Source: Solibacillus silvestris
Lineage (GTDB): Bacteria > Bacillota > Bacilli > Bacillales_A > Planococcaceae
NCBI GenBank assembly: GCA_001586195.1
Contig: CP014609.1
Span: 842,001-906,000 of the forward strand
Direction of reading: 5' to 3'
DNA length: 64,000 nucleotides
Both the position numbers and the translations under genes were made by a program. The notes beneath the pieces were generated by a model that did not search any database, had not been told where the DNA came from, and saw only the letters and a program-made list of their open reading frames with translations. Shown here one piece after another: positions 10,435-49,864 of this stretch; the stretch's first letter is position 1, and each line of letters starts with the position of its first letter.

Positions 10435-10470
10435 ACCCAAGCGAAGAATTTTGCTTGGGTTTTTGTTTTT
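10435..10470 (+). terminator. recA terminator
   Basis: ACCCAAGC/GCTTGGGT stem with a ten-base loop and a T-rich tail, nine bases after the recA stop. Confidence 0.92.
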
Positions 10471-10551
10471 GTGAAGGGGATAGGCGATTTTATAGCTAAG
10501 GTGGGGCGGTCTTTGGTTGAAGTACCTGTTGGGTCAGGGGAGCGTTGGAGT

Positions 10552-10623
10552 TTATTAGAACAAATATGGGTTTTATTAGAAGGTCTTTGCGTGATATTAG
10601 AAGATTGGAAGCAGATATTAGAA
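10552..10623 (+). repeat. 21-bp-periodic array, TTATTAGAA family (downstream of recA, short block)
   Basis: Cores begin at 10552 (TTATTAGAA), 10573 (TTATTAGAA), 10594 (ATATTAGAA) and 10615 (ATATTAGAA), exactly 21 bases apart. A degraded fifth unit follows near 10636. The order of first bases, T, T, A, A, equals the first four units of the longer blocks at 10697 and 41152. In frame it reads LLExxxx-LLExxxx-ILExxxx-ILExxxx. An open frame (10426-10653) runs through it but starts at the recA stop and lacks a ribosome binding site. Confidence 0.88.
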
Positions 10624-10696
10624 AATGGGACCGATTTAGCCGATCTTGATTGAATTTTTCTAGGTAAAACCGGTGAAAAATAAAGTGCGGAAACTT

Positions 10697-10869
10697 TTAT
10701 TTGAACGAATGTTTGCTTTATTAGAAAATTGCCACCTGATATTAGAAGATTCGAAGAGGATATTTGAAAATCGGGACGACTTATTAGAAGAAGTGCAGAA
10801 TATATTAGAAAATCGCAAGTTTATTAGAACAAATAAAAATATATTAGAACATCTAAAGATTTATTAGAA
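10697..10869 (+). repeat. 21-bp-periodic array, TTATTAGAA family (downstream of recA, nine-unit block)
   Basis: Nine cores begin at 10697, 10718, 10739, 10760, 10781, 10802, 10821, 10841 and 10861. The intervals are 21 five times, then 19, 20 and 20. The block at 41152-41324 has the same interval series and nearly the same T/A choice at each core. One frame (10673-10867) is open and reads as leucine/isoleucine heptads ending FIRTNKNILEHLKIY. A GTG at 10673 has no convincing Shine-Dalgarno site. Bases 10870-11016 hold only a weakly palindromic stretch (CCGGATT...AATCCGG) without a gene. Confidence 0.9.
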
Positions 10870-11016
10870 CTTCCCGCCGTCTGGTAGCCCGTAAATCGCG
10901 TCAACCGGATTCATTATAGAAAAGATTGGTAACCCGCTACCCCAATCCGGACTAATTTCTGGAAGTCCCTTAATGGACCATAAAAATATAAAAAACCCCT
11001 TAAACCATGGCTATTC

Positions 11017-25394: not shown

Positions 25395-26387
25395 ATGAAT
25401 GATGAGATAAATATATTAATTTTAAGCTGCGGAACAAGAAATAAAATTGTGCAATACTTTAAAAAAGAATTGGCAGATAAAGGTTATGTTATAGCAACGG
25501 ATTGTAGTGATTTAGCACCTGCATTCTATGATGCAGATAAATATTTCGTTGTTCCTAGAATCGAGGATGATAATTATATCGATACTATTATTTCTATTTG
25601 CAAAAAACATAATATTAAAGCAGTATTTTCATTAATTGATCCAGAAATCCACATACTGGCTAAATATAAAAAAGATTTTTTAGAGATCGGAACACTTCCA
25701 ATAATACCTAATTTAAGTATTGTTGATATGTGCTTTGACAAATATAAAATGTATCAATTCCTGATTAAAAATAATATTAAAACAATAAGAAGTTATATTG
25801 ATAAAGGAAAATTTTATCGTGATGTCGATTTGGGTTTAATAAACTATCCGGTGTTTATTAAGCCTATAAAAGGAAGTTCTAGTAACAATATAAATAAGGT
25901 TGTATCTAAAGATGAAGTAGAATTATTATTTAATCGTTTTGACAACTTAATGATTCAAGAGTATCTCGTTGGAGTTGAATATGGAATTGATGTTTATATT
26001 GATATTTTTTCCAATGAACCTGTCGCTATCTTTGCTAAAGAAAAGATTAAAATGAGAGCTGGTGAAACAGATAAAGCTATATCGGTAAAAGATTCAGAAC
26101 TATTCGAATTAATAAAGAAATTTGTGAAAATTGTTGGATTTAAAGGGGTTATTGATATTGATCTTTTTAAAGTTAACGATGAGTTTTATATTTCTGAAGT
26201 GAATCCTCGATTTGGAGGAGGGTATCCGCATGCATATGAATGTGGAGTAAATATCCCAAATATGATAATAAATAATTTAAAAGGCAATACTAATGTAGAT
26301 ATGATAGGAAAATATGATGAAAATATTTACATGATGAAGTATAACGAAATAAAAATATTAAAAAATAGTAATATGACCGTTATATAA
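25395..26387 (+). CDS. ATP-grasp protein of carbamoyl-phosphate-synthase type
   Basis: A 330-residue protein. The N-terminus INILILSCGTRNKIVQYFKKEL is a Rossmann-like pre-ATP-grasp domain. The central part has YPVFIKPIKGSSSNNI and MIQEYLVGVEYGIDVYID (ATP binding). The C-terminal part has DIDLFKVNDEFYISEVNPRFGGGYPHA, with the metal-binding E and N. Such enzymes join a carboxylate to an amine. In this locus it may add an amino acid to the amino-sugar or polymer. ATG 25395 follows GGAGGAACTG. The substrate cannot be read from sequence. Confidence 0.85.
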   Translation: MNDEINILILSCGTRNKIVQYFKKELADKGYVIATDCSDLAPAFYDADKYFVVPRIEDDNYIDTIISICKKHNIKAVFSLIDPEIHILAKYKKDFLEIGTLPIIPNLSIVDMCFDKYKMYQFLIKNNIKTIRSYIDKGKFYRDVDLGLINYPVFIKPIKGSSSNNINKVVSKDEVELLFNRFDNLMIQEYLVGVEYGIDVYIDIFSNEPVAIFAKEKIKMRAGETDKAISVKDSELFELIKKFVKIVGFKGVIDIDLFKVNDEFYISEVNPRFGGGYPHAYECGVNIPNMIINNLKGNTNVDMIGKYDENIYMMKYNEIKILKNSNMTVI

Positions 26388-26564
26388 TCAATATTTTTAA
26401 GTGAGGAAAGTAAATAGGAATAAAATAAATAATTACTTTTTATCCTATTAAAGGGGAAAATTAGTTAATAGATACTGCAGTAGTGATTAAATAAATATTT
26501 ATTAATCTTGTTAATCAATATTGCTACTCTTTTTGGGTCCAATAGATAAAAAGGTGATGGTTAA

Positions 26565-28043
26565 GTGGAAAATGAAATAACAAGGACTAAAATAATTTCT
26601 TCTATATTTTGGAGGTTTTTGGAGTTTAGTGGGGAGCAGGGCATTCAACTTTTAGTGTTAGTTATATTAACACGTCTGCTCTTACCAGAAGATTTTGGTT
26701 TAATTGTTTTAGTAACTATTTTTATTTCCGTTGCAACAGTAATAACTCAGAGTGGATTTAATACTGCACTTATTCAAAAAAAAACTATGGATGAAGCAGA
26801 TCTTTCCTCTGTTTTTTATGTAAATTTACTTATTTCAACTATTTTATATTTCATACTTTTTATGATAGCTCCTTTTCTCGCTTCATTCTTTGAACACCCT
26901 CAATTAACACTGATTATAAGGCTTCTTTCCTTATCTTTAATATTGCGTGCATTGCATTCTATACAAAATGTTATTATTATTCGAAACATGCAATTCAAAA
27001 AATTATTTACTTGTAGTATAGGGGGCGTTATTCTTTCAGGTATTATCGGAATACTAATGGCATATACAGGTTTTGGAGTCTGGTCTTTAGTAGTCCAGCA
27101 ATTGGTAAACAACTTAGTTTATACAATAACGATAGTCTTTATTGTAGCATGGAGACCACGATTAATATTTTCAATAGGCAAGCTAAGAGGTTTATTCTCT
27201 TATGGTTGGAAGATATTAGTCTCCTCTTTAATAGATTCTATTTATTTGAATATTAGTAATTTAATTATTGGTAAAATGTTTAGTCCGGCTATATTAGGCT
27301 TTTATAATAGAGGTGAACAAATTCCTGGTCTCCTTGTTAGTAATATCAACGGCTCGATACAATCAGTGTTATTTCCGGCACTTTCCACTCAGCAAGAAAA
27401 TAAGAAACGAGTAAAAGAAATGGTGAGAAGGGCGATGGTTACTAGCGCATTTATTATCTTTCCAATGATGATTGGTCTAGCTGTTATTGCTGAGACCTTA
27501 GTAAAGATAGTTTTAACTGAAAAATGGATGCCCGTTGTTCCTTTTTTACAGATTTTTTGTTTCATATACATTTTATGGCCTATTCGTACAGCTAATTTAC
27601 AAGCAATAAATGCATTAGGAAGAAGCGATATCTATTTAAAGTTAGAAATAGCCAAAAAAATGCTGGGAATAGTTATTTTAACGATAGCTCTGCAGCATGG
27701 AATTTACGCAATAGTAATGGGTATGTTTATTACTAATTTCTTATCATTATTTATTGATGCTTATCCTAATTCAATATTGCTAGATTATAGGTTAATAGAA
27801 CAATTTTTTGATGTTTTCCCTTCTCTGTTTATATCTCTAATTATGGGAGTAACGGTACTTAGTATTAAGTTACTTGGTTTTACTAATATAACAACTTTAA
27901 TAATGCAAATTTTTGTAGGTTTTATTTTTTATATCATTTTAGCAAAGGTTTTCAAATTAGAGCCATATACTTACTTGATTGAGATAATAAAAGGAATATT
28001 GATAAATAATAAAAAAGCACGTAATAAACAGATTTACGAATAA
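26565..28043 (+). CDS. Wzx-type polysaccharide flippase (MOP/PST family)
   Basis: A 492-residue membrane protein with 12-14 predicted helices and the family start IISSIFWRFLEFSGEQGIQLLVLVILTRLLLPEDFGLIVL. It also has ALIQKKTMDEADLSSVF and FYNRGEQIPGLLVSNINGSIQSVLFPALS, typical of the colanic-acid WzxC/TuaB-like branch. It moves undecaprenyl-linked repeat units across the membrane. It starts at GTG 26565 after AAGGTGATGG. The 177-base gap before it contains no gene and may hold a weak promoter. Confidence 0.93.
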   Translation: MENEITRTKIISSIFWRFLEFSGEQGIQLLVLVILTRLLLPEDFGLIVLVTIFISVATVITQSGFNTALIQKKTMDEADLSSVFYVNLLISTILYFILFMIAPFLASFFEHPQLTLIIRLLSLSLILRALHSIQNVIIIRNMQFKKLFTCSIGGVILSGIIGILMAYTGFGVWSLVVQQLVNNLVYTITIVFIVAWRPRLIFSIGKLRGLFSYGWKILVSSLIDSIYLNISNLIIGKMFSPAILGFYNRGEQIPGLLVSNINGSIQSVLFPALSTQQENKKRVKEMVRRAMVTSAFIIFPMMIGLAVIAETLVKIVLTEKWMPVVPFLQIFCFIYILWPIRTANLQAINALGRSDIYLKLEIAKKMLGIVILTIALQHGIYAIVMGMFITNFLSLFIDAYPNSILLDYRLIEQFFDVFPSLFISLIMGVTVLSIKLLGFTNITTLIMQIFVGFIFYIILAKVFKLEPYTYLIEIIKGILINNKKARNKQIYE

Positions 28044-28123
28044 AAAATGACTATATTTTAAACGTTCAAGAGTGTTAACAATAACAATCACTTAATTTAT
28101 AGGACAAAAGGGAGATTTTCCGA

Positions 28124-29014
28124 TTGAAGATTGCAATTCTTGATACTAGGAAAGCTTATTTACCGGAGATTAGTGCATATATAAGCTATTTAGAGAAAAA
28201 TGGAATAACAGCAGTAAGAATATACAAAGATATTTTGGATAACATAAATAAATATGACATTATTTGGAAATTTACTGGTGTTGATTTTATTGGCAATAAT
28301 AATGGATCTGTAGTTCATGAGTATAACTCATTAACGGTAGGGAAATTAAAGTGGATTAAAGATACAATAAAAAAACAAACAAATATTAAACCGGAAGGAA
28401 GAGTTTTTCTTAATAACGAAGTGAAAGCTGCTATGAATTTTAAGGATAATGTACCGTCTATTATAAGAGATATGGGGATTGCAAAAGAATTTTTTGTGCA
28501 AAACCCTAATAAAGAATATGATTTTGTTTACATCGGAGCTATGGAGAAAAGTAGGCAGTTGGATCAGATATTGCATAGCTTTAAGCAAAAAGATATTCAG
28601 AAAAATATACTGATGATAGGTAGACCGAATGATGAATTATATGCTCAGTTTAAAGACAATAAAAATATAATTTTCACAGGTATAGTAAATTATAAAGAAG
28701 TTCCGAAATTAGCTTCAAAAGGAATATACGGTCTAAACTATGTGCCCGATGTGTATCCATTTAATAAACAAACTTCCACAAAATTATTGGAATACTGTGC
28801 GCTAGGCTTAAACATAGTAACTACTGATTATTATTGGGTTAGAAATTTTGAAGAAAAGGAAAATTCTTCTTTTTATAAAATTACTAACAAAACTCACTTA
28901 GATTTTGAAAGTATAGATAAGTTTAACTATAAAACAGCAGATGTTATGAAATACGAATGGAATACTGTATTGAATCAATCAGGGTTAATAGAGTTTATTA
29001 ACCAAATAAGGTAG
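28124..29014 (+). CDS. Glycosyltransferase, GT4-like
   Basis: A 296-residue protein with a GT-B type C-terminal half: DFVYIGAMEKSRQLDQILHSF, ILMIGRPNDELYAQF, NIIFTGIVNYKEVPKLASKGIYGLNYVPD and STKLLEYCALGLNIVTTDYYWVRNF. The N-terminal acceptor domain is short, which is small for GT4 (about 360-380). It starts at TTG 28124 after AAAAGGGAG. It probably adds one sugar of the repeat unit. Donor and acceptor are unknown. Confidence 0.8.
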   Translation: MKIAILDTRKAYLPEISAYISYLEKNGITAVRIYKDILDNINKYDIIWKFTGVDFIGNNNGSVVHEYNSLTVGKLKWIKDTIKKQTNIKPEGRVFLNNEVKAAMNFKDNVPSIIRDMGIAKEFFVQNPNKEYDFVYIGAMEKSRQLDQILHSFKQKDIQKNILMIGRPNDELYAQFKDNKNIIFTGIVNYKEVPKLASKGIYGLNYVPDVYPFNKQTSTKLLEYCALGLNIVTTDYYWVRNFEEKENSSFYKITNKTHLDFESIDKFNYKTADVMKYEWNTVLNQSGLIEFINQIR

Positions 29015-29026
29015 TGAAGAAATAAA

Positions 29027-30193
29027 ATGTCAAGAAAAATAAATCTAGAAAGATTATGGATGTTTTCATTGTTTCTAACAGTATTAATGAGTCTTCTTTC
29101 TTATGAAATTAATCTATATTACAGATATTATAATTACGCTACATTTATGGTTATATTCAGTGGGATTGCTATTTTTTATTGCTTTACTCTTCTAGCTCCT
29201 CGAGATATGTTTAATGATTTTAAAAGGGAAATATATGGAAATAAATTAGTTCAATTTTGGATATTTGCTCAATATCTTGTGATTTTTCTAGGTTCTTTTT
29301 TAGGAAAAGATGTAACCCTTTCTAACTTAATACGATTAATAGCAATCATACCAGTAATTTGGGTATTTTACATATTCATACCCAAAAATTTAAATGAAAA
29401 AATGATATATAAATTGGGAACATTTATTATTTTTTGTATAACTAGTTTTTCTTTTATAGGCACAATTATTAAAGTAAATGGACAATTCATGGGATACACA
29501 ATGTTTTATGGAAGATTAAGATCATTATTTTTTGATCCTAATTATTTTGCGGCTCTTGTAGGTGTGGCCTTTTTATTATCTTATAATAGAAAAGGGTTTT
29601 ATAAGTTTATAGCAGCATTTAATTTAATAATTATAATATGGACAGGCTCTAGGACCGCGATTATCGCATTAATAGTTACAACAATTCTTATGTACTTTTA
29701 TAAGAAGAAAATTAAAATTAAGGATTTATTAAAGATTCCTTTTATTTTAACATTTTTATATTTTATTTTATATTATTTATTTCAATCAGGATTCTTTAGG
29801 ACTTCTCAAGGGTTAGGTTCGAGAGATAGATTGGCGGAAATTACCTTTATCATGTTGAAAGAAGAACCTTTTTTGGGATATGGAATGAATGCCGTAACAC
29901 CATTACTTAATTCTTATAGAACACTAAGTAGTAGTACACATAATACTTATTTAGATTATGCTCTAACTTATGGCATCCCGTTGACTATTATTTATTTATT
30001 GGTAATTTTCTTTGCTATGTATAGAGGCTTTAAAGCAAAAATTGAAGGGAATATCTTATGTGTTCTAATATTTTTATTTATATTTTCTAATTCTATTGCA
30101 ATTAGTTTAGGTGGAGTTGGTGCAATATCGTTAATTTTCACTTTGTATTTAGGTTATTGTAACACTAAAAATAGTCTTATAACCAAAATATAA
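29027..30193 (+). CDS. O-antigen polymerase/ligase family (Wzy-like) membrane protein
   Basis: A 388-residue protein with about ten membrane helices. It has the Wzy_C/O-antigen ligase pattern: RLRSLFFDPNYFAALVGVAFLLSY, TGSRTAIIALIV, and the extracytoplasmic loop GLGSRDRLAEITFIMLKEEPFLGYGMNAVTP with SSSTHNTYLDYALTYGI, where Arg and His residues are usually functional. It would polymerise flipped repeat units outside the membrane. ATG 29027 follows 12 bases after the GT gene. Confidence 0.88.
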   Translation: MSRKINLERLWMFSLFLTVLMSLLSYEINLYYRYYNYATFMVIFSGIAIFYCFTLLAPRDMFNDFKREIYGNKLVQFWIFAQYLVIFLGSFLGKDVTLSNLIRLIAIIPVIWVFYIFIPKNLNEKMIYKLGTFIIFCITSFSFIGTIIKVNGQFMGYTMFYGRLRSLFFDPNYFAALVGVAFLLSYNRKGFYKFIAAFNLIIIIWTGSRTAIIALIVTTILMYFYKKKIKIKDLLKIPFILTFLYFILYYLFQSGFFRTSQGLGSRDRLAEITFIMLKEEPFLGYGMNAVTPLLNSYRTLSSSTHNTYLDYALTYGIPLTIIYLLVIFFAMYRGFKAKIEGNILCVLIFLFIFSNSIAISLGGVGAISLIFTLYLGYCNTKNSLITKI

Positions 30194-30260
30194 TGTATGT
30201 CACTTCTGAAAGAAAGATAGATTCCAAAATCTTAAGCAATTTAATATGGAGGAAAATTAA

Positions 30261-31373
30261 ATGAAAATATTTTTCGTAGCTTCAATCTACAGTCACTTTA
30301 CTGCTTTTCATATTCCATATATGAAATACCTTCAATCAATAGGTTATGAAGTCTGGGCAGCAGCTGGATTAGGGCGAGAAGATCGTGAAATATTAGAACT
30401 TATAAATGTAAAATGTGTAAATGTACCTTTTTCAAGAAATCCTTTTGATTTTAAAAATATCAAAGCCTTTTATGCCTTAAAAAAGATATTTAAGTCAGAA
30501 CAATTCGAATTGGTGCACGTACATACACCTGTTGCATCATTAATTACAAGAGCTGCTTTTAGAAATAGTAAAATAGGTAAAATGCTGTATACTGTGCATG
30601 GTTTTCACTTTTTTAAAGGGGCACCGAAACTTAACTGGATAATATATTATACAGCTGAAAAACTTGCTGCAAAGTGGACCGATTATTTAATTACTATTAA
30701 TGAGGAAGATTATAGAAATGCATATAATTTGTTACCAGTAGAGAAGGTATCACTAGTGCATGGGGTTGGGGTGGAAATATTATCACAACGAATAGAAGAT
30801 ATAGAAAAAAAGAATTTAAAGGAAAAATTAGGTTTAAATAGTCAATCGGTTGTTATTTCATATATAGCGGAATTGAATGAGAATAAAAATCATAAATTTT
30901 TACTTAGAAATTGGTCAGCTATCAAACAAAAAAACCCAAACTATGAACTATTAATTATTGGAACAGGTAAAAAAGAAATGGAACTAAAGGCATTTGTAGA
31001 AAAAGAACAGTTACAAGGTGTACATTTTTTGGGTTACAGAAGAGATGTTCCGGTATTACTTCAAATATCAGATATTATAACGTTGTTATCTTATCGTGAA
31101 GGCTTACCAAAAAGTATTATGGAAGCTATGGTAGCAGGGATTCCCTGCGTTGTAAGTAATACGCGTGGTTTAAGAGATTTAGTAAAACCTAAGGGAAATG
31201 GCTTTGTAGTTAATCATGATGAACATCAAGATCTAGTTGAAGCATTTACAGCATTAAATCAAAAGCAATTAAGAATTGAAATGGGATATAAATCCAAAAT
31301 CTTCATTGAGCCCTTTTTAATAGGAAAAGTATTAGAAGAATATAAAGTGATTTATAAGAGATTGTTAAATTAA
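30261..31373 (+). CDS. Glycosyltransferase family 4 (EpsD-like)
   Basis: A 370-residue GT-B enzyme: N-terminal FVASIYSHFTAFHIPYMKYLQSIGYEVWAAAG, acceptor-domain FELVHVHTPVASLITRAAFR, YTVHGFHFFKG, and C-terminal donor site VHFLGYRRDVPVLLQISDIITLLSYREGLPKSIMEAMVAGIPCVVSNTRG, with the EGLP-x4-E nucleotide-sugar motif. It resembles EpsD of B. subtilis. GGAGGAAAA precedes ATG 30261. Unlike the upstream genes it is not overlapped, being 67 bases after the polymerase. Confidence 0.92.
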   Translation: MKIFFVASIYSHFTAFHIPYMKYLQSIGYEVWAAAGLGREDREILELINVKCVNVPFSRNPFDFKNIKAFYALKKIFKSEQFELVHVHTPVASLITRAAFRNSKIGKMLYTVHGFHFFKGAPKLNWIIYYTAEKLAAKWTDYLITINEEDYRNAYNLLPVEKVSLVHGVGVEILSQRIEDIEKKNLKEKLGLNSQSVVISYIAELNENKNHKFLLRNWSAIKQKNPNYELLIIGTGKKEMELKAFVEKEQLQGVHFLGYRRDVPVLLQISDIITLLSYREGLPKSIMEAMVAGIPCVVSNTRGLRDLVKPKGNGFVVNHDEHQDLVEAFTALNQKQLRIEMGYKSKIFIEPFLIGKVLEEYKVIYKRLLN

Positions 31374-31858
31374 ATTTCAAATCTCAACTGAAAATCAAAA
31401 TTTTATAAATAAGGTATTACAAAATCATAACAACATCTATAAATACGCCTCCTCCACACTACAATACTTACTAATTAAAGGTAATATTCACTTAACTCTC
31501 CCTATAAAACATGAAGCAAGGTAATCAGGTCAAATCACGTCTCTTTATATAATCAAAAAAATCTATGCATCCTAAATATTCTATTACTTTTTTATCAGAA
31601 TGAATATCAAATACAGTTTCTTGATTTAGCATAACAATTGTTCGAAATTACTAACAGAAGTCTTCGTTCCTGACTCGGGTAAGAATAAGGCATAAAGTGT
31701 ATTAAGAATTTTAAAGGGAAGTCGTTATGGAAAATTATATAGGAAAGCATCAGTTTATGAAGTATTAGCTAAGAAGAATTTTATCGTGAGGTTGGATATG
31801 GAAACATTGTTTATATTGATAACTTTAAAGGCTTATAAAGAGAAGGGGGTAGGAAGTT
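31374..31858. other. Decayed stretch between the GT4 and decarboxylase genes
   Basis: No intact gene. A short frame around 31730-31874 (RKASVYEVLAKKNF...KEKGVGSYSNNN) has no start and looks like a gene remnant. A 35-codon frame on the minus strand around 31525-31632 is likewise unsupported. AGAAGGGGG at 31841-31849 is the probable ribosome binding site of the next gene. Confidence 0.5.
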
Positions 31859-33076
31859 ATAGTAACAACAATTAATGCTAAATTACAAACACCATATTTT
31901 TTAATAGATGAGAAAGAGTTAAAAAAGAATGTATTAAATCTTAAAAATGCTTTAAATAAATATTGGCAGAACTCTATTATAGGTTATTCGTTTAAAACGA
32001 ATTCGATACCGTGGTTATTAGAATACTTTATGGAAAATGATATATACGCGGAAGTTGTATCGGATGATGAATACGAGTTGGCGCAGAGAATTGGTTATGA
32101 AAAAAATAAGTTAATTTATAACGGTGTTATAAAATCAAAAACAACTTTTTTAGAAGCGATTAAAAATGGTTGTATTGTCAATATTGATACACAAAGAGAA
32201 TTGAATTGGCTTATGGAACTTGACAACTTGAGTAATAAACAATATGAAGTTGGAATAAGAGTTAATTTTGATTTAGAAAGCTACTGTCCAAATGAATCGA
32301 TAATGACAGATGAAGGCGGTAGATTTGGCTTTTGTTATGAAAATGGGGAGCTAAAAAAGGCCATTGATTATATTAATAAGTTAAATCATGTAAATTTGAT
32401 AGGATTGCATTTACATTGCAGCACAAAGACAAGAAGTTTAGATGTATACAAAGCTATTTCAAAAATAACATGTGAAATTAAAAGAGCTTATTCACTCGAA
32501 TTAAAATATGTTGATGTTGGAGGTGGGTTTTACGGAGGTCTCGAGAATAGACCGCAATTTGATGATTATATAAAAGTGATTTCAGATGAATTAATTAAGG
32601 AGTTTAGCAAAGATAATCTAATTTTAATTATCGAACCAGGCACATCATTAGTTTCATCACCAATTAGTTTTATAACTAGTGTTATAGATGTTAAAGAGAC
32701 TACTCGTAATTATTTTGCTATCACGGATGGAAGTAGGATTAATATTGATCCGTTACAAAAAAAGACTAGTTACTTTTATGAGATTGAATATAAAAAAATG
32801 CTAAATAAGAATAATTTAAAAAAACAAACTATTTCGGGTTTTACTTGTATGGAAGAGGATAGGTTATTCGTATTAGAGGGATATCCCCAATTAACAGTTG
32901 GAGATAAAGTGATATATAAAAAAGTTGGTGCTTATACCTTATGTTTGTCACCTTTATTTATTAAATATTTTCCAACAGTTTATTTGGAAAAAGATGGGGT
33001 TATTAGTGAGATTAGAAAAAAATGGGCAAGTGAAGACTATATAAAAAGTTCACATATGCAGATTAAATATAATTAG
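31859..33076 (+). CDS. Fold-III PLP decarboxylase (LysA/ornithine decarboxylase-like), non-standard or lost start
   Basis: The frame is open from 31853 and carries the family N-terminus QTPYFLIDEKELKKNV and the PLP lysine in GYSFKTN. It continues with GLHLHCST, YVDVGGGFYGG, IIEPGTSL, the substrate cysteine region GFTCMEEDRL, and VGAYTLCL. The first ATG (32030) lies after the PLP lysine, so it cannot be the true start. The only codon well placed after AGAAGGGGG is ATA 31859 (ATA GTA ACA). Either this rare start is used, or an ATG has mutated and the gene is silent. Family members decarboxylate diaminopimelate, ornithine or similar; the target here is unknown. Confidence 0.75.
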   Translation: MVTTINAKLQTPYFLIDEKELKKNVLNLKNALNKYWQNSIIGYSFKTNSIPWLLEYFMENDIYAEVVSDDEYELAQRIGYEKNKLIYNGVIKSKTTFLEAIKNGCIVNIDTQRELNWLMELDNLSNKQYEVGIRVNFDLESYCPNESIMTDEGGRFGFCYENGELKKAIDYINKLNHVNLIGLHLHCSTKTRSLDVYKAISKITCEIKRAYSLELKYVDVGGGFYGGLENRPQFDDYIKVISDELIKEFSKDNLILIIEPGTSLVSSPISFITSVIDVKETTRNYFAITDGSRINIDPLQKKTSYFYEIEYKKMLNKNNLKKQTISGFTCMEEDRLFVLEGYPQLTVGDKVIYKKVGAYTLCLSPLFIKYFPTVYLEKDGVISEIRKKWASEDYIKSSHMQIKYN

Positions 33077-33376
33077 CTAGGATTTACTTGATTCATTTTT
33101 AAATGAAATAGGCCGGCTGTAGTTTGTCGTGAAATATAAATTGAAGTCTGAATAGTTAGATGAATATAAGTAGCGAAATTTATAAATAGTTTTAGCGAAA
33201 TCAATTTGGGAAATCAAATAAAAAATAATTTAGATATAATTCAAAACTATTTTTCATAAGCTAATAGTAATAGGGACAGTTCAGGAGTAATGCTAGGAAT
33301 TGGATTGTTTTCAAATGAGATTGTTTCACATTATAAAAGATTATGACGAGACTTTACATGAGGGAGAGGTCTGACA
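33077..33376. other. AT-rich gap before the fabH-like gene
   Basis: No gene is supported. A 18-codon frame (near 33287) lacks a partner. GAGGGAGAGG at 33359-33368 is the ribosome binding site of the next gene. Confidence 0.5.
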
Positions 33377-34363
33377 TTGACTAAAATTAAAAAAATTGAA
33401 TATTATTTCCCTGAAAATCGTGTTTTTAATGATTCGGAAAATAGAACAACAAAAAAAATAGGAATTTCTTCGAAGTATATTGCAGCCGAGAATGAAACAG
33501 CTTTAGATTTGGCTATAAAAGCTGCAGAGAAAATTTTTAAAAACGGCGTTATTAGAAAAGAGGAAATAGATTTTTTACTATTTTGTACGCAGTCGCCAGA
33601 TTATATTTTGCCGACTTCTGCGTGCATTATTCAAGAAAAATTGGGACTATCAACTAGTTGCGGTGCATTAGATTTCAACTTAGGCTGTTCAGGATTTATT
33701 TATGGACTTTCTTTAGCGAAGGGTCTAATAAAAAGTAATCAAGCGACGAATGTTCTTTTATTAACGGCGGATACCTATAGTAAATATATTAATGAAAATG
33801 ATTTAAGTACATCCTTACTTTTTGGGGATGGTGCAGCAGCAACATTAATTACTAAAAGTGAAGATGATTGTATTGGTGAATTTGTCTTTGGAACGGATGG
33901 TAGTGGTGCACATAACTTAATAATTTATTCTGGAGCCGCAAGGGAACCTGTTGCTTCAAATGGGGCTACGAAATTTGTGGATGGAAGAGGTCACATTAGA
34001 AATAAAAGTGATCTCTATATGAATGGTCCAGAAGTGTTTAACTTTGCTATGAGGGAAGTACCAGAGTCTATTTATTCTTTATTAGAAAAAGAACATAAAA
34101 CAATCAATGACTATGATTATTTTGTTTTTCATCAAGCTAATCAATACATGTTAAATGCATTAAGAAAACGATTAGAAATTGATATTAATAAATTTTCTAT
34201 ACAAATGAGTGATTGTGGGAATACAGTATCTGCGACGATTCCTATTGCGTTAAAGAGAGAAATTGAAGCTGGTAAAATTAAAGATGGCCATACAATTCTA
34301 CTTGCGGGATTTGGCGTAGGATTATCTTGGGCATCATGTTCTTTAAAAATTAATTTAAATTGA
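33377..34363 (+). CDS. 3-oxoacyl-ACP synthase III (FabH-like)
   Basis: A 328-residue thiolase-fold enzyme with the full KAS III triad: C104 in NLGCSGF, H252 in FHQANQ and N282 in CGNTVSATIP. It condenses an acyl-CoA with malonyl-ACP. It starts at TTG 33377 after GAGGGAGAGG. It is followed by an acyl carrier protein (12 bases) and an acyltransferase (1 base), so the trio forms a dedicated acyl-ACP module inside the polysaccharide locus. Housekeeping FabH lies elsewhere in such genomes. The acyl product is not known. Confidence 0.92.
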   Translation: MTKIKKIEYYFPENRVFNDSENRTTKKIGISSKYIAAENETALDLAIKAAEKIFKNGVIRKEEIDFLLFCTQSPDYILPTSACIIQEKLGLSTSCGALDFNLGCSGFIYGLSLAKGLIKSNQATNVLLLTADTYSKYINENDLSTSLLFGDGAAATLITKSEDDCIGEFVFGTDGSGAHNLIIYSGAAREPVASNGATKFVDGRGHIRNKSDLYMNGPEVFNFAMREVPESIYSLLEKEHKTINDYDYFVFHQANQYMLNALRKRLEIDINKFSIQMSDCGNTVSATIPIALKREIEAGKIKDGHTILLAGFGVGLSWASCSLKINLN

Positions 34364-34375
34364 GGAGAATGGGAA

Positions 34376-34621
34376 ATGGACTTAAAAGAATTTACATTGT
34401 TATGTGAAGAAGTTTTAGATATTGAGGAAGGAACATTACAATTATCCACTAATTTAGATGAAATTGAAGAATGGGATTCATTAGCAAAGATGGATTTAGT
34501 TTCAATGTGCGAGGAGAAATTCAATCTAAAATTATCATTAGATATTTTCAATGATGCGGATACATTACAAAATTTAATCGATCAGATCAACGGCTATTTA
34601 ACAGAGTCAGTGGGCGAATAA
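34376..34621 (+). CDS. Acyl carrier protein
   Basis: An 81-residue acidic helical protein with the phosphopantetheine attachment serine in EEWDSLAKMDLV (S39 region) and the usual four-helix pattern. It does not follow the near-invariant fatty-acid ACP motif GADSLD, which suggests a specialised carrier. ATG 34376 is preceded by GAGGAGAATGGG. It sits between the FabH-like and acyltransferase genes and probably carries the acyl chain passed to the sugar. Confidence 0.9.
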   Translation: MDLKEFTLLCEEVLDIEEGTLQLSTNLDEIEEWDSLAKMDLVSMCEEKFNLKLSLDIFNDADTLQNLIDQINGYLTESVGE

Positions 34622-34622
34622 A

Positions 34623-35375
34623 ATGGATAAGCCTAAAAAGAATGGTGAGAAATTGATTATTGTCGGGGCAGGGGAATCTGCAGAAATAGCATATGAGTAT
34701 TTTACATATGATTCCCCATATGAAATAAAAGCTTTTGCCGTTGAAAAAGAGCATTTAAAAGAATCTAAACTTTATGGTTTACCAGTTGTTCCCTTTGAAG
34801 AAGTGCAATTGCTTTATCCAGTGGAGAAGTATAAGGCCTTTGTAGCCATTGCACAAACTAAACTTAATAGGTTGAGAACAAGATTATATTATGAAACTAA
34901 AAATAAAGGATATCAATTCGTATCTTATATTAGCTCAAAAGCTTTTATTTGGAGAAATGTCACTATTGGTGAAAACTGTTTTATATTTGAACATAATGTG
35001 TTACAGCATCAGGTTAATATCGGGAATAATGTTGTTTTATGGAGCGGGAATCATGTAGGGCATCGATCGATTATTAAGGATAATTGTTTTATTTCCTCCC
35101 ATGTAGTAATTGCAGGAGGAAGTGAAATAGGCGAATCTTGTTTTATTGGTATAAATAGTACGATAAATGGAGCAGTAAAGATTTCGAAAGACTGCTTTAT
35201 ATCTTCAGGTGCATTAGTTAATAAAAACACAAAAAAAGGAAAAATGTACATTGGAAACCCCGCGAAAGCATCTAAAATTGATAGTTATAGGTATTTTAAT
35301 ATAGAAGATGATACTGAAAAGTCGAAAAATGAAATATATACGGATAATAATATAGAAATCCCTATTGAAATATAG
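34623..35375 (+). CDS. NeuD/EpsM-like sugar O/N-acyltransferase (left-handed beta helix)
   Basis: A 250-residue protein: N-terminal Rossmann domain (KLIIVGAGESAEIAYEYF) followed by hexapeptide repeats (ENCFIFEHNVLQHQVNIGNNVVLWSG...) with the probable catalytic histidine in NHVGHRSI. PglD and EpsM acetylate the amino-sugar made by the PglF/PglE pair. Here the adjacent ACP and FabH point to an acyl-ACP donor. It starts one base after the ACP stop. About 30 residues beyond the usual end form a charged tail. Confidence 0.88.
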   Translation: MDKPKKNGEKLIIVGAGESAEIAYEYFTYDSPYEIKAFAVEKEHLKESKLYGLPVVPFEEVQLLYPVEKYKAFVAIAQTKLNRLRTRLYYETKNKGYQFVSYISSKAFIWRNVTIGENCFIFEHNVLQHQVNIGNNVVLWSGNHVGHRSIIKDNCFISSHVVIAGGSEIGESCFIGINSTINGAVKISKDCFISSGALVNKNTKKGKMYIGNPAKASKIDSYRYFNIEDDTEKSKNEIYTDNNIEIPIEI

Positions 35376-35539
35376 GATGACCATATTATAAATAGCGATA
35401 ATACGAAATATCGTTATATCCAATAAAAAAGAATGATTTAACTTTTGGTACACATCCTAATAGTTATTGTGTTTATTAGAAATTGCAATCAATATTACTT
35501 GAAAAAACCAAATAGATATGTATCAAGGGGGAAATAAAG

Positions 35540-36265
35540 TTGGAAGAATCACTCAGTCTACAGGAGATTACGAACATACTGAAGAAACGTTTATGGCTAA
35601 TTATTATTTTAACCATTACAAGTATTGGAATTACTACAGGTATCAGCTTTTATGCCTTAACCCCAACCTATCAGGCACAAACTCAAATTTTAGTTAACCA
35701 AAACAATAGTTCTGAAGGAGTCTACTCTTGGCAAACAACTGAAACAGATTTACGTTTAATTAATACGTATAATGTCATTATTACAAGCCCAGTCATTCTA
35801 ACTCCAGTAATTGAGGCACTCAATCTAAACTTAACTCCATCACAATTAACACATCAAATCTCCATCTCTAACGAAAATGACTCGAAAGTTGTTACGATTA
35901 ATGTAGAAAATCCAAACCCATCAAAAGCAGTTGAAATCTCAAATACAGTAGCGGAAGTATTTAAAGAACAAATACCACAGCTAATGAGTGTCGATAATAT
36001 TTCCATCCTATCCGCAGCTAAAATGAGCGAAAATCCTATCCCGGTTAAACCGAATAAAAAGCTAAATATTGCCATAGGTGGCTTAATAGGTCTGATACTT
36101 GGTATCGGTTTGGCCTTTTTGCTTGAGTTTTTAGATATGTCAATAAAGGGTGAGCAAGATGTGGAAGATTATTTAGGTTTGCCGGTCATTGGAATAGTTG
36201 ACTTAATTAAGGAAGAAAAGCAAAACAGATTTTCATTTAATCCCCGAAAAGCGAGGAGAAGTTAA
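35540..36265 (+). CDS. Wzz/CpsC-type chain-length regulator and kinase adaptor
   Basis: A 241-residue protein with two membrane helices (about 20-40 and 175-198) flanking an extracytoplasmic Wzz domain (PTYQAQTQILV, NPNPSKAVEISNTVAEVFKEQIPQ). The proline/glycine motif before helix 2, NPIPVKPNKKLN, is characteristic. It activates the adjacent kinase, as YwqC/EpsA do. It starts at TTG 35540 after AAGGGGGAAAT. The gap 35376-35539 contains no gene. Confidence 0.93.
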   Translation: MEESLSLQEITNILKKRLWLIIILTITSIGITTGISFYALTPTYQAQTQILVNQNNSSEGVYSWQTTETDLRLINTYNVIITSPVILTPVIEALNLNLTPSQLTHQISISNENDSKVVTINVENPNPSKAVEISNTVAEVFKEQIPQLMSVDNISILSAAKMSENPIPVKPNKKLNIAIGGLIGLILGIGLAFLLEFLDMSIKGEQDVEDYLGLPVIGIVDLIKEEKQNRFSFNPRKARRS

Positions 36266-37433: not shown

Positions 37434-37480
37434 GGTTTGCGGGATATATTTAAATAGAAGGGATTTAAATTGGCGGGAGT

Positions 37481-37693
37481 TTTAATCGTCAATTTAGGCT
37501 ATTTATTCGTCACTTTTGACGTTTTATCGTCAACAGGAATTTTTCAATTCGCCCCTTTATAAGGATGGGAATTTTAATCGTCACTATTATCACGATAATC
37601 GTCAAAACCAATTATTTAATCGTCAGTTTCTGTTGCTTATTCGTCACTTTGCAGTAGATAATCGTCAATCATGAACGGATATTCGTCACTTCC
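37481..37693 (+). repeat. 21-bp-periodic array, TCGTCA family
   Basis: The core TAATCGTCA or TATTCGTCA recurs with TCGTCA beginning at 37486, 37507, 37527 (shifted by one), then 37578, 37599, 37620, 37641, 37662 and 37683, the last six exactly 21 bases apart. TTCGCC at 37549 is a degraded unit in phase with 37507. In one frame it reads LIVxxxx/LFVxxxx heptads interrupted by stops. It lies directly after the spoVS terminator, in the same orientation as the other arrays. Function unknown. Confidence 0.88.
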
Positions 37694-39968: not shown

Positions 39969-40835
39969 ATGGCAACATTTAAAGATTTCCGAAATTCCGT
40001 AAAACCTAACTGGTGTCCAGGCTGTGGTGACTTCTCCGTACAAGCGGCGATTCAGCGTGCAGCGGCAAATGTAGGCTATGAACCAAGTGAATTAGCAGTG
40101 ATTTCAGGGATCGGCTGTTCTGGTCGTATTTCAGGCTATATTAACTCATACGGTTTCCACGGCATTCACGGTCGTGCATTGCCGATCGCGCAAGGCCTTA
40201 AAATGGCAAACAAAGACCTGAAAGTTATCGCTTCTGGCGGTGACGGTGACGGCTTTGCGATCGGTATGGGTCACACAATCCATGCGATCCGCCGTAACAT
40301 CGACATTACGTATGTAGTAATGGATAACCAAATTTACGGATTAACAAAAGGGCAAACATCTCCACGTTCTGCTGCTGGTTTCATTACGAAATCAACACCA
40401 GGCGGAGCAATCGAGCCATCATTAAAACCATTGGAAGTTGCTTTAACAGCAGGTGCGACATTTGTGGCACAAGGCTTCTCAACGGATATTAAAGAACTGA
40501 CAGCAATGATCGAAGCCGGTCTGAACCATAAAGGTTTTTCATTTATTAACGTATTCTCTCCATGTGTAACGTACAATAAAGTAAACACATACGACTGGTT
40601 CAAAGAGAATTTAACAAAGCTTGCTGACATCGAAGGCTATGATTCATCTAACCGCGAAATGGCCATGCAAACAGTAATGCGCCATGAAGGTCTTGTAACA
40701 GGCATTATTTATCAGGATACTGAAACAACTTCGTATCAGGAAAAAATCAAAGGCTACTCAGAGCTGCCGTTAACAGATATCGATATTAGCTTATCAGAAG
40801 AACAATTTGATCAGTTGACTAAGGAATTTATGTAA
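39969..40835 (+). CDS. korB: 2-oxoacid:ferredoxin oxidoreductase, beta subunit
   Basis: A 288-residue TPP-binding subunit: WCPGCGDFSVQ (Fe-S cysteines), ISGIGCSGRISGYI, HGRALPIAQGLK, and the TPP motif GDGDGFAIGMGH...MDNQIYGLTKGQTSPRS. It begins two bases after the korA stop, with AGGAGG at the end of korA. A terminator follows. The N-terminal Cys-x2-Cys and the later cysteine at about residue 196 (SPCVTYN) are consistent with one [4Fe-4S] cluster. Confidence 0.94.
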   Translation: MATFKDFRNSVKPNWCPGCGDFSVQAAIQRAAANVGYEPSELAVISGIGCSGRISGYINSYGFHGIHGRALPIAQGLKMANKDLKVIASGGDGDGFAIGMGHTIHAIRRNIDITYVVMDNQIYGLTKGQTSPRSAAGFITKSTPGGAIEPSLKPLEVALTAGATFVAQGFSTDIKELTAMIEAGLNHKGFSFINVFSPCVTYNKVNTYDWFKENLTKLADIEGYDSSNREMAMQTVMRHEGLVTGIIYQDTETTSYQEKIKGYSELPLTDIDISLSEEQFDQLTKEFM

Positions 40836-40848
40836 ATAGTTTTTAGGG

Positions 40849-40887
40849 CTATACAGGCTGGAGTTTCCGGCTTGTATAGTTTTTTTG
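40849..40887 (+). terminator. korB terminator
   Basis: CTATACAGGCTGGA and CCGGCTTGTATAG pair with a GTTT-centred loop; T7 tail. Confidence 0.9.
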
Positions 40888-40915
40888 TTTAGGGGGAATT
40901 ATAGATTTGGGCATT

Positions 40916-41089
40916 TTATTGGAACAATGGAGCGGTATATTAAAAAAGAGTACAGATTGACGGTAGATGCACCAGTGAAGTAGCGGGCTTTGGCTTTTAT
41001 TAGAACAATGGAGTGGTTTATTAGACAATAATAATAGTTTATTAGAAAAAGTTGGTGTCTTATTAGAAAATCGAACAACAAAATTTGAA
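40916..41089 (+). repeat. 21-bp-periodic array, TTATTAGAA family (downstream of korB, two partial blocks)
   Basis: First block: TTATTGGAA at 40916 and ATATTAAAA at 40937, then degraded. Second block: cores at 40997, 41018, 41039 and 41060, each 21 bases apart, and AAATTTGAA at 41081 as a fifth unit. Both blocks begin with the same text, reading LLLEQWSG in one frame, so they are tandem partial copies of one element. No start codon or ribosome binding site supports translation. Confidence 0.86.
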
Positions 41090-41151: not shown

Positions 41152-41324
41152 TTATTAGAACATTGTAGTGGTTTATTAGAAAAAATCACCGTGATATTAG
41201 CAAATCAGGAGATGATATTCGAACATTCCGAACACTTATTAGAACAACAGGGGGCTATATTAGAAAATCCGCATTTTATTAGAACTATTAAAAATATATT
41301 GGAAGATTTCTTAATATATTAGAA
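41152..41324 (+). repeat. 21-bp-periodic array, TTATTAGAA family (downstream of korB, nine-unit block)
   Basis: Cores begin at 41152, 41173, 41194, 41215, 41236, 41257, 41276, 41296 and 41316. The interval series 21 x5, 19, 20, 20 is identical to the block after recA. The in-frame reading (41134-41322) ends FIRTIKNILEDFLIY, aligned residue for residue with FIRTNKNILEHLKIY of the recA block, and both stop at the TAG of the last core. Bases 41325-41531 hold no gene. Confidence 0.9.
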
Positions 41325-47006: not shown

Positions 47007-47180
47007 CTTCATGCAGCAGGCGTTTCAAACGCCTGCTGCATGAAGATAAGCCTCTGGCAGATGTCACAGATTTTTTTAAGGAAAGGATGTCAGCCTAAAA
47101 ACGTCGCGTCGTGCGACAAAGGCTGACTGACCCACGTCCTGTGGGCCTAAAATCTGGACGCAATTACGCCGAGGCGTAAT
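47007..47180 (+). repeat. Structured leader element before dnaK (copy 2 of 2)
   Basis: CTTCATGCAGCAGGCGTTT and its exact complement (47007-47045, one-base centre) form a 19-bp hairpin. CAGATTTT pairs with AAAATCTG enclosing GTCAGCCT/AGGCTGAC and CCCACGTCCTGTGGG, and AATTACGC pairs with GCGTAATT. The blocks TAAGC, GGCAGATGTCAC, GGAAAGGA and GCAATTACGC match the element before korA. Because it lies between grpE and dnaK, it could modulate or partly terminate the hrcA-grpE-dnaK transcript. Confidence 0.82.
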
Positions 47181-49152: not shown

Positions 49153-49174
49153 AAGTTTGTAATGGTATGGGCTT

Positions 49175-49505
49175 ATTAGCGGATTCTCGTGGGAAAGTAG
49201 AACTTATTGAAACGAAAGTAGAAAGTTCAGCGGCTAATGTGGAAGCTATTCAGGGAAAAGTGGAATAGATCGCCCGGAAAGTAGAAAGTGCAAATTATAT
49301 TAGTGGGTTCCCGTGAGAAAGTAGAACATATTGAATCGAAAGTAGAAAGTTTAGTATCTAATGTGGAAGCTATTAATGGAAAAGTAGAATAGATAGCCCG
49401 GAAAGTAGAAAGTGCAAATCTTTTTAGCGGATTTCCGTGAGAAAGTAGAACTTATTGAATCGAAAGTAGAAAGTTCAGCGACGAAAGTGGAAGCTATTCA
49501 TGGAT
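49175..49505 (+). repeat. 21-bp-periodic array, AAAGTAGAA family (downstream of dnaK)
   Basis: Superunits of exactly 124 bp begin at 49194, 49318 and 49442; the third is incomplete. Each has five 21-base units plus a 19-base linker starting TTAGCGG or TTAGTGG. Unit order and spacer text match the array at 415-1040, for example the unit ending ATCGCCCGG. The heptad reading frame is broken by TAG and TGA codons. It follows the dnaK terminator and precedes two GC-rich palindromic elements. Confidence 0.9.
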
Positions 49506-49543: not shown

Positions 49544-49649
49544 AGTGCTTGGAATGGAGGGGACGACTCCAGCGGGAATAGCGTGACGCCTGAGACTACA
49601 GGCTCAGGCCACGCCCGCGGAAAGCGTCCGACCCGGAATGGAAAGCACT
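49544..49649. repeat. GC-rich palindromic intergenic element, second type
   Basis: Bounded by AGTGCTT and AAGCACT. It contains GGAGGGGACGACTCCAGCGG, AGCGTGACGCCTGAG, CTCAGGCCACGCCCGCGG and AAAGCGTCC. It is related to the elements at 1127 and 49721 by the GACTCC, AGCGTG and GCCACGCCC blocks. Similar elements are, to my recollection, dispersed in many Bacillaceae genomes; this was not checked. Confidence 0.82.
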
Positions 49650-49720
49650 GGACCTTATGAAGAGAAGAAATTATATATTGCGAAAACTGATGTAGTAAAG
49701 GTTATTAAAATTAACCGGTA

Positions 49721-49864
49721 GTTGTGCGAAGTGGAGGGGCCGACTCCTAGGGGGATTAGCGTGCGCGGAAAATCAGGTTGCTCCTGCGGTTACTCGTCGC
49801 AAAGCTTTATTCAAAGCTTTGGAGCCACGCCCCCAGGAAAGCGTGCCCCGCAACGCAGCACAAC
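49721..49864. repeat. GC-rich palindromic intergenic element with 7-bp terminal inverted repeats (copy 2)
   Basis: Bounded by GTTGTGC and GCACAAC, 144 bases long, against 201 for the copy at 1127. The flanking blocks are conserved and the middle differs (CAAAGCTTTATTCAAAGCTTTG hairpin region). No gene is supported in 49505-49979; the last 110 bases are AT-rich and must hold any dnaJ promoter. Confidence 0.86.

Follow-up and report, generated by a model that had tools for sequence, protein, structure and literature searches.

Helically phased arrays of short oriented cores behind gene ends in Solibacillus silvestris and related genomes

Dispersed repeats in bacterial genomes are usually explained by palindromes and transposases. 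In Firmicutes, the bcr repeats of the Bacillus cereus group are dispersed through intergenic regions. Iterons, found at plasmid origins, are direct repeats about 20-22 bp apart that are bound on one face of the DNA. REP and BIME elements are described in enterobacteria and Pseudomonas; REPs are palindromic, BIMEs consist of REPs in alternating orientation, and binding of architectural or topological proteins to these elements has been reported (PMC2817692). BIME-2 has been linked with gyrase (PMC6379681). Phased A-tract clusters, which consist of short A or T runs in bacterial chromosomes, are reported to be linked with curvature (PMC3940949, PMC3431218).

The arrays described here come from Solibacillus silvestris, a member of the Planococcaceae with a genome of 3,991,226 bases in one contig, and were recognised in a stretch of 64,000 nt (assembly GCA_001586195.1, contig CP014609.1, positions 842001-906000, forward strand), which we refer to as the window. 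Array 1 (10697-10869, plus strand) lies between recA and rny, annotated by Pfam as RNase Y, and consists of nine family A cores, TATTAGAA. The cores start at 10698 + 0, 21, 42, 63, 84, 105, 124, 144 and 164, and the array ends at 10869, giving five intervals of 21 bp followed by intervals of 19, 20 and 20 bp. Array 2 (41152-41324, plus strand; first core at 41153, end at 41324) has the identical series and is located downstream of a gene (39969-40835) for the beta subunit of a 2-oxoacid:ferredoxin oxidoreductase (Pfam TPP_enzyme_C and PFO_beta_C), with a chemotaxis-receptor gene coming after it. Each array forms the 3' part of a longer element, in which a block of four cores in 21-bp steps stands upstream. 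Behind recA, this block occupies 10552-10623 (plus strand; cores at 10553, 10574, 10595 and 10616) and is followed by a core-free stretch (10624-10696, plus strand) that measures 82 bp from core start to core start, a length kept within 1 bp among orthologs. At the second locus, the four-core block lies at 40997-41068 (plus strand), and the corresponding gap, counted in the same way, is 92 bp, exceeding the first by about one helical turn. A terminator-like hairpin with a T-run can be read directly behind both upstream genes, at 10437-10469 behind recA, 5' of the element, and at 40849-40888 behind the oxidoreductase gene (both plus strand).

The earlier note on this DNA had described two nine-core arrays with one interval series, a near-identical choice of the base preceding each core, and largely different spacers. 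All three observations hold: both arrays are at the positions given there and the series is exact, the first eight preceding bases agree (TTAATATAT in array 1, TTAATATAA in array 2), and spacer identity is 0.55 compared with a core identity of 0.944. Variant cores are the first and fourth of array 1 (TATTTGAA) and the third, fourth and eighth of array 2 (TATTAGCA, TATTCGAA and TATTGGAA, respectively). A recent segmental duplication as the origin of the two arrays was rejected on the low spacer identity.

When the entire window is scanned for periods of 13-33, peaks with z of at least 5.5 arise only at 20 (one peak) and 21 (five peaks). Three exact cores separated by gaps of 11-13 bp occur at 106 places in the 3.99-Mb genome (71 forward and 35 reverse), compared with 0 matches for the reversed pattern in the same genome, a control which, together with the window scan, excludes chance. 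Modules were sought in the stretches around 100 of the 106 places (29 stretches and the window) by free chaining, with at most one mismatch per core and no spacing model. This gave 42 chains, three of them four-core blocks, and hence at least 39 nine-core modules; the earlier note had named an absence of further copies as an argument against a functional element, and the genome holds many. If an absent core is allowed to show up as an interval of double length or as the lack of an end, the series (20/21), 21, 21, 21, 21, 19, (20/21), (20/21) is kept in 36 of the 39 modules, among the matches listed; the three that deviate are L017, L020 and L036. Exact neighbouring cores no more than 120 bp apart lie only at distances of 19-21, 39-42, 60, 63, 71, 80-84, 90-93, 101 and 103 bp. 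A model-based search produced 50 raw candidates, and the 36 with a score of at least 64 were retained for the profile, coding, hairpin, fold, spacer and gap analyses. Most of the 14 discarded candidates are four-core blocks that the search mistook for modules, the others being L017, L036 and one family B array; L020 does not fit this search. Its model fixed intervals 2-5 at 21 and interval 6 at 19, so that uniformity there is by construction and the unbiased interval count is that of the free-chaining list.

Conservation within the modules is concentrated in the cores. The extended core consensus is WTATTAGAAnAW (core TATTAGAA), and across the 36 modules core columns mostly carry 1-2 bits of information and most spacer columns 0.1-0.5 bit; more information sits in some spacer columns that adjoin cores and in the spacer between cores 6 and 7. 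In six of the nine slots, the core G never varies. Among paralogs (630 pairs of the 36 modules), core identity averages 0.934, and spacer identity is 0.426 compared with 0.428 after column permutation. Because the spacers stand at this column-permuted level, the copies appear to be mostly old, yet few of their intervals have changed. A few module pairs are closer, the closest having a spacer identity of 0.80 and lying about 9 kb apart. High spacer identity between the two window arrays, which the earlier note had seen as the mark of a recent copy, was not observed.

Orthologous arrays were compared using one copy per species. Behind recA, in six species, core differences amount to 59 of 1080 (0.055) and spacer differences to 361 of 1480 (0.244); at the second locus, in four species, the corresponding values are 14 of 432 (0.032) and 87 of 600 (0.145), giving a spacer-to-core divergence ratio of 4.5 at both loci. 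These sums omit a misassigned row that inflated divergence (L056.1) and the interrupted recA module of genome G003. The break in the latter nine-core module (L059) measures about 64 bp, or nearly three lattice steps, and leaves the cores beyond it almost in phase. In the six recA orthologs, the distance from the stop codon to the first core is 129, 107, 91, 151, 125 and 83, while the inside intervals vary by at most 1 bp (the degenerate cores of G006 chain as longer intervals). Selection on the spacing, as the earlier note had argued, is therefore supported from two sides: paralogs keep the series with their spacers randomised, and orthologs keep it while their flank lengths vary.

The distances between exact cores (up to 400 bp; periods scanned from 9 to 25 bp) are best described by a period of 10.3 bp, close to the helical repeat of DNA. 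The mean resultant length is 0.773 at 10.3 bp, compared with 0.742 at 20.6 and 0.492 at 10.5. For distances above 60 bp it is 0.766 at 10.3 and 0.662 at 20.6, so phase is retained even at distances where the sites no longer keep the two-turn register. A 10.3-bp lattice holds all 13 cores of each window element within 1.4 bp. Predicted curvature is not above that of shuffled sequences (z +0.13, computed with dinucleotide wedge angles). The earlier note had suggested same-face protein binding; its phasing component fits the 10.3-bp lattice, and the binding protein is one that we infer. Sites spaced two helical turns apart would all face one side of the DNA, and the odd steps may be phase corrections, in that five steps of 21 bp would drift off 20.6 and the following 19, 20 and 20 bp would restore a mean of about 2 x 10.3 bp. 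In G243, a genome of another genus, a family A core recurs in steps of 21, 21, 21 and 40, or 103 bp for five steps, which may likewise be read as a correction holding the mean near 2 x 10.3 bp. Of the other core families described below, B and C fit a period of about 20.6 or 10.4, and D has its best period at 19.85, nearer 20.0 than 20.6.

The gap between the four-core and nine-core blocks was measured in the 20 modules of this genome that have two upstream cores in step. It is 81-83 in 14 of them and 69, 71, 71, 72, 91 and 92 in the others. Modules with a lone upstream core were excluded; their gaps are 82 bp (L022), 60 bp (L034) and 129 bp (L030), the last being off the whole-turn pattern. 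In the orthologous enolase slot, the gap is 91 in G000, 70 in G005 and 81 in G009, G010 and G014, with G006 degenerate. Measured from 82, six of the seven deviating gaps are a whole turn away, give or take 1.75 bp (p = 0.008, in a post hoc test on copies that are not independent).

Helical phasing could also be expected if the arrays were loading sites for gyrase or another topoisomerase, as BIME-2 is for the gyrase of E. coli. Their location at gene ends, their phasing and the length of the nine-core block (about 170 bp) agree with this idea, and gyrase prefers phased GC variation; however, the published motif has its cleavage region at the centre, within 130 bp, and a period of 10.75 bp (PMC6379681). 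The arrays have a period of 10.3, their column profile (36 modules) reveals no symmetric centre, and the invariance of the core G is more specific than a bending preference. Given the published motif period, gyrase fits less well, and we consider topoisomerase loading improbable.

Gene context was determined with a simple ORF caller for 37 modules, namely the 36 retained modules and L036; L017 and L020 are absent from these counts, and one duplicate locus was dropped from 38 rows. Relative to the module direction, both flanking genes are forward in 16 cases, convergent in 13, both backward in six and divergent in two. Convergent and divergent pairs differ in number with p = 0.007 and the co-directional pairs, 16 versus 6, with p = 0.05, so that the bias in upstream orientation is slight. 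The orientation relative to upstream genes, a count suggested by the earlier note, is the same as that of the array in 29 of 37 modules, and the arrays are extragenic, behind gene ends. A hairpin with a T-run lies between the stop codon and the first core in 24 of the 29 co-oriented cases, and opposite-strand downstream genes have one on their own side in 11 of 18; both counts come from our own detector and carry no background rate. The upstream genes (22 of the 29 co-oriented ones scanned with Pfam) include those for Rho, enolase, thiolase and chemotaxis receptors, among others, with one lacking a match, and no common function emerges among those scanned.

An RNA-level element, either a small RNA or a 3' UTR in which an RNA-binding protein would recognise repeated UAUUAGAA sites, would agree with the co-oriented upstream genes and with the excess of forward over backward co-directional pairs. 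Yet a terminator-like hairpin precedes most of these arrays (the 24 of 29 above), and spacing by helical turns would serve no obvious purpose in single-stranded RNA. Whichever strand is taken, the predicted RNA fold is weaker than that of dinucleotide-shuffled sequences (mean z +0.84 and +0.31), and Rfam has no match at the arrays, its two window matches lying elsewhere. We therefore regard an RNA element as very unlikely.

The earlier note had also offered a protein made of heptads; as a small coiled coil, it would have seven residues encoded by each 21 nt. The 21-nt steps suit such a protein, as does a TTA GAA frame that is stop-free inside the core. Across cores 2-6, however, this frame contains a stop in 13 of 36 modules, compared with 13.5 expected from column permutation, and an apparent depletion against within-spacer shuffles (22.9 expected) is gone once column composition is kept. 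Codon differences are mostly nonsynonymous, with 154 nonsynonymous and 26 synonymous among the recA orthologs and 40 and 6 at the second locus, and the 19- and 20-bp steps shift the frame. Stop frequency and nonsynonymous excess refute coding heptads, whose probability we take as negligible.

The strongest rival is a selfish dispersed repeat, spread without gain to the host by some transposase, recombinase or gene-conversion process that has the phased cores as its recognition sites. Its copies would be many, as they are here, and their distribution patchy: the A pattern is present in 11 of 16 genomes of the genus and absent from the other five, present in two of 25 of one other genus, and found in 13 of 261 across the family overall. 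A strict four-core pattern, searched in a collection of named genomes, has matches only in Solibacillus merdavium (2 stretches). Behind recA, the whole element stands in tandem in three species, in two copies in G009 (L055) and G010 (L058) and in three in G014 (L057); these copies are similar and are joined by 38-, 49- and 59-bp links, which suggests local amplification or homogenisation. The avoidance of divergent gene pairs is expected of any tolerated insertion. Counts of the A pattern also correlate with those of Y1 transposases over the 16 genus genomes (Spearman 0.55, p = 0.026); Y1 matches are present in nine of these, and the four A-richest genomes hold 2-5. In contrast, Y1_Tnp has 0 matches in S. 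silvestris itself, with its 106 array-pattern matches, and in G006, with 50. The copies look old, their spacers being randomised between paralogs and shared between orthologs, and phasing should decay in copies that have no function. The two window elements share no terminal inverted repeats, such inverted repeats as they contain being weak and unshared, and the column profile of the 36 modules has no conserved ends. A blastn search with the recA-side element (window 10540-10880) at E 1e-5 found no match in plasmid or phage records, among which those close to this genome may be missing. Viral contigs contain 13 stretches with three spaced cores; in the eight stretches examined, the run comprises three cores in seven cases and six in the other (L052, in 20-bp steps). 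On balance, a selfish repeat appears rather unlikely, and same-face binding sites remain our preferred reading.

Arrays with the same step and other cores occur both in the window and in relatives. In all, the 64-kb window has at least five phased arrays, which fall into three core types. Family B arrays (AAAGTRGAA cores, 21-bp steps) lie at 419-1025 and, between dnaK and dnaJ, at 49174-49504 (both plus strand); each has a superperiod of about 123 bp with TTATTAGC-like units, and the interval housing the latter spans some 880 bp. A family C array (TGRCGAWTA cores, 21-bp steps) occupies 37479-37688 on the minus strand, with exact three-core matches at 37575-37688 and a tandem repeat at 37479-37533. 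The S. silvestris genome contains 28 three-core matches of family B and six of family C. Other features of the window include Bacillaceae-1 RNA matches (RF01690) at 1240-1306 and 47079-47145, one of them shortly behind a family B array. A GC-rich, apparently dispersed intergenic element (for example GGGGCCGACTCC, GGAAAGCGTCC) can be discerned by eye at about 1130-1330, 49545-49660 and 49725-49860, and also in L081, behind the oxidoreductase gene of G012. The GC content of the region from about 26000 to 36000 is 27-31 percent, compared with roughly 35-44 in most of the window, and its genes may have been acquired.

Among relatives, the core word at a given place can differ. The second locus carries C units in G003, G004 and G009 and A units in G000, G005, G010 and G014; G006 appears C-like by eye, and G006 and G009 are non-significant in the whole-intergenic scan described below. 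Behind recA, family C is found in G004 and family D (CGCAAATA) in G013 and G001, the G013 genome holding 64 family D matches. A core-agnostic scan, with periods of 13-33 and a threshold of p < 0.02 from 200 shuffles, took in the 400 nt downstream of each of three genes, namely recA, the gene at the second locus and the enolase gene. Within the genus, 26 of 47 slots are significant, 24 at period 21 and two at 20. Behind enolase in other genera, six of 24 are significant (five at 21, one at 20), all among the 21 slots of the same family and none among the three of other families; the remaining 18 slots have no array. All 32 significant slots of the three genes thus fall at period 20 or 21. The control sets are small. 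Among coding stretches of the same genes, two of 47 are significant, each with a period of 30. None of 30 gene ends of E. coli K-12 is significant, these being hand-picked ends many of which run into the next gene, and whole E. coli intergenic regions of at least 120 nt give 0 of 12. The 400-nt scan sets leave out 1, 4 and 1 slots; in the 30-genome query, G042 went unmatched, and the match in G153, which was split, was set aside.

When whole intergenic regions of the genus are scanned, 24 of 40 slots are significant, at periods of 20 (three), 21 (20) and 22 (one), with eight of 48 slots left out (seven short, one unresolved). Two of these 24 are weak, one behind recA in G012 (a low-complexity AT stretch) and the other behind enolase in G014 (partly G-rich). 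Behind the 45 plus-strand ORFs of the window, three slots are significant at 21 (recA, the second locus and dnaK) and one at 30. The units in some of the significant arrays read TAATAGACAA (G074), TAATAG-CA (G033) and TATTAG-C-A (G233); the unit of G243, AATCGCCA, is family C in reverse complement, and that of G216, TGACGAATAA, belongs to family C. Behind enolase in G016 (L159), near-identical 20-bp repeats have a GC-richer unit unlike the other cores.

Judged by their letters, most array units could be variants of a single motif, although the step from A to C alone is unconvincing. Specifically, a motif that drifts may underlie TATTAGAA, TAATAGACA, TAATAGYCA, TATTAGCCA and TAATCGCCA, where TAATCGCCA is family C in reverse complement. 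We tentatively suggest an element class of the Planococcaceae that is conserved in geometry and not in sequence, in which the core word would drift and be replaced between species, possibly in step with a DNA-binding protein that evolves fast. Such a class would give a chromatin-like system at gene ends.

Taken with the constraint on its lattice, its non-coding character, its position, its many copies and the presence of same-step arrays with other cores behind the same genes in relatives, the array is best explained as a noncoding DNA lattice of oriented sites every two helical turns, forming one dispersed class behind gene ends. We put the probability that these are same-face binding sites for a protein at the ends of transcription units at about 0.48, slightly below an even chance. 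A sequence-specific protein would bind the sites side by side on one face, giving a filament or wrapped complex that could be continuous over up to some 310 bp behind gene ends. The existence of several different cores counts against a single binding protein, for which it is awkward. More speculatively, the complex may mark or insulate the end of the transcription unit, blocking read-through or fixing the DNA topologically, and a role as transcription-unit boundary or nucleoid anchor would fit the position best.

Comparison with described systems reveals partial likenesses. Iterons are likewise direct repeats at similar spacing, but the arrays are chromosomal, with dozens of copies behind unrelated genes, and a Pfam scan of 22 of the 29 co-oriented upstream genes found no replication initiator. 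The arrays resemble bcr repeats in being dispersed intergenic repeats of Firmicutes; by description, bcr repeats are not known to be phased short-core arrays. We found no description of such arrays in the open-access literature, and with most subscription papers outside this scope their novelty is unproven. Like REP and BIME elements, the arrays have many extragenic copies behind genes. Unlike them, the array repeats are direct, non-palindromic and helically phased, with all cores of a module pointing one way, and the S. silvestris genome has no Y1 match. Strong gyrase sites also show helical phasing over more than 100 bp, but their motif is a degenerate GC pattern of period 10.75 (PMC6379681), compared with 10.3 and well-conserved cores in the arrays. 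The helical periodicity of an AT-rich word is shared with A-tract clusters, from which the arrays differ in having a specific 8-mer, a fixed series and no excess predicted curvature. If a protein lines the sites, they would constitute a novel type of nucleoid or gene-boundary structure in Firmicutes, whose binding geometry is directly testable through the length changes, found in nature, that preserve phase. In place of a palindrome or a transposase, the selected property here is apparently helical phase over some 300 bp, with spacers free and the core word differing among species.
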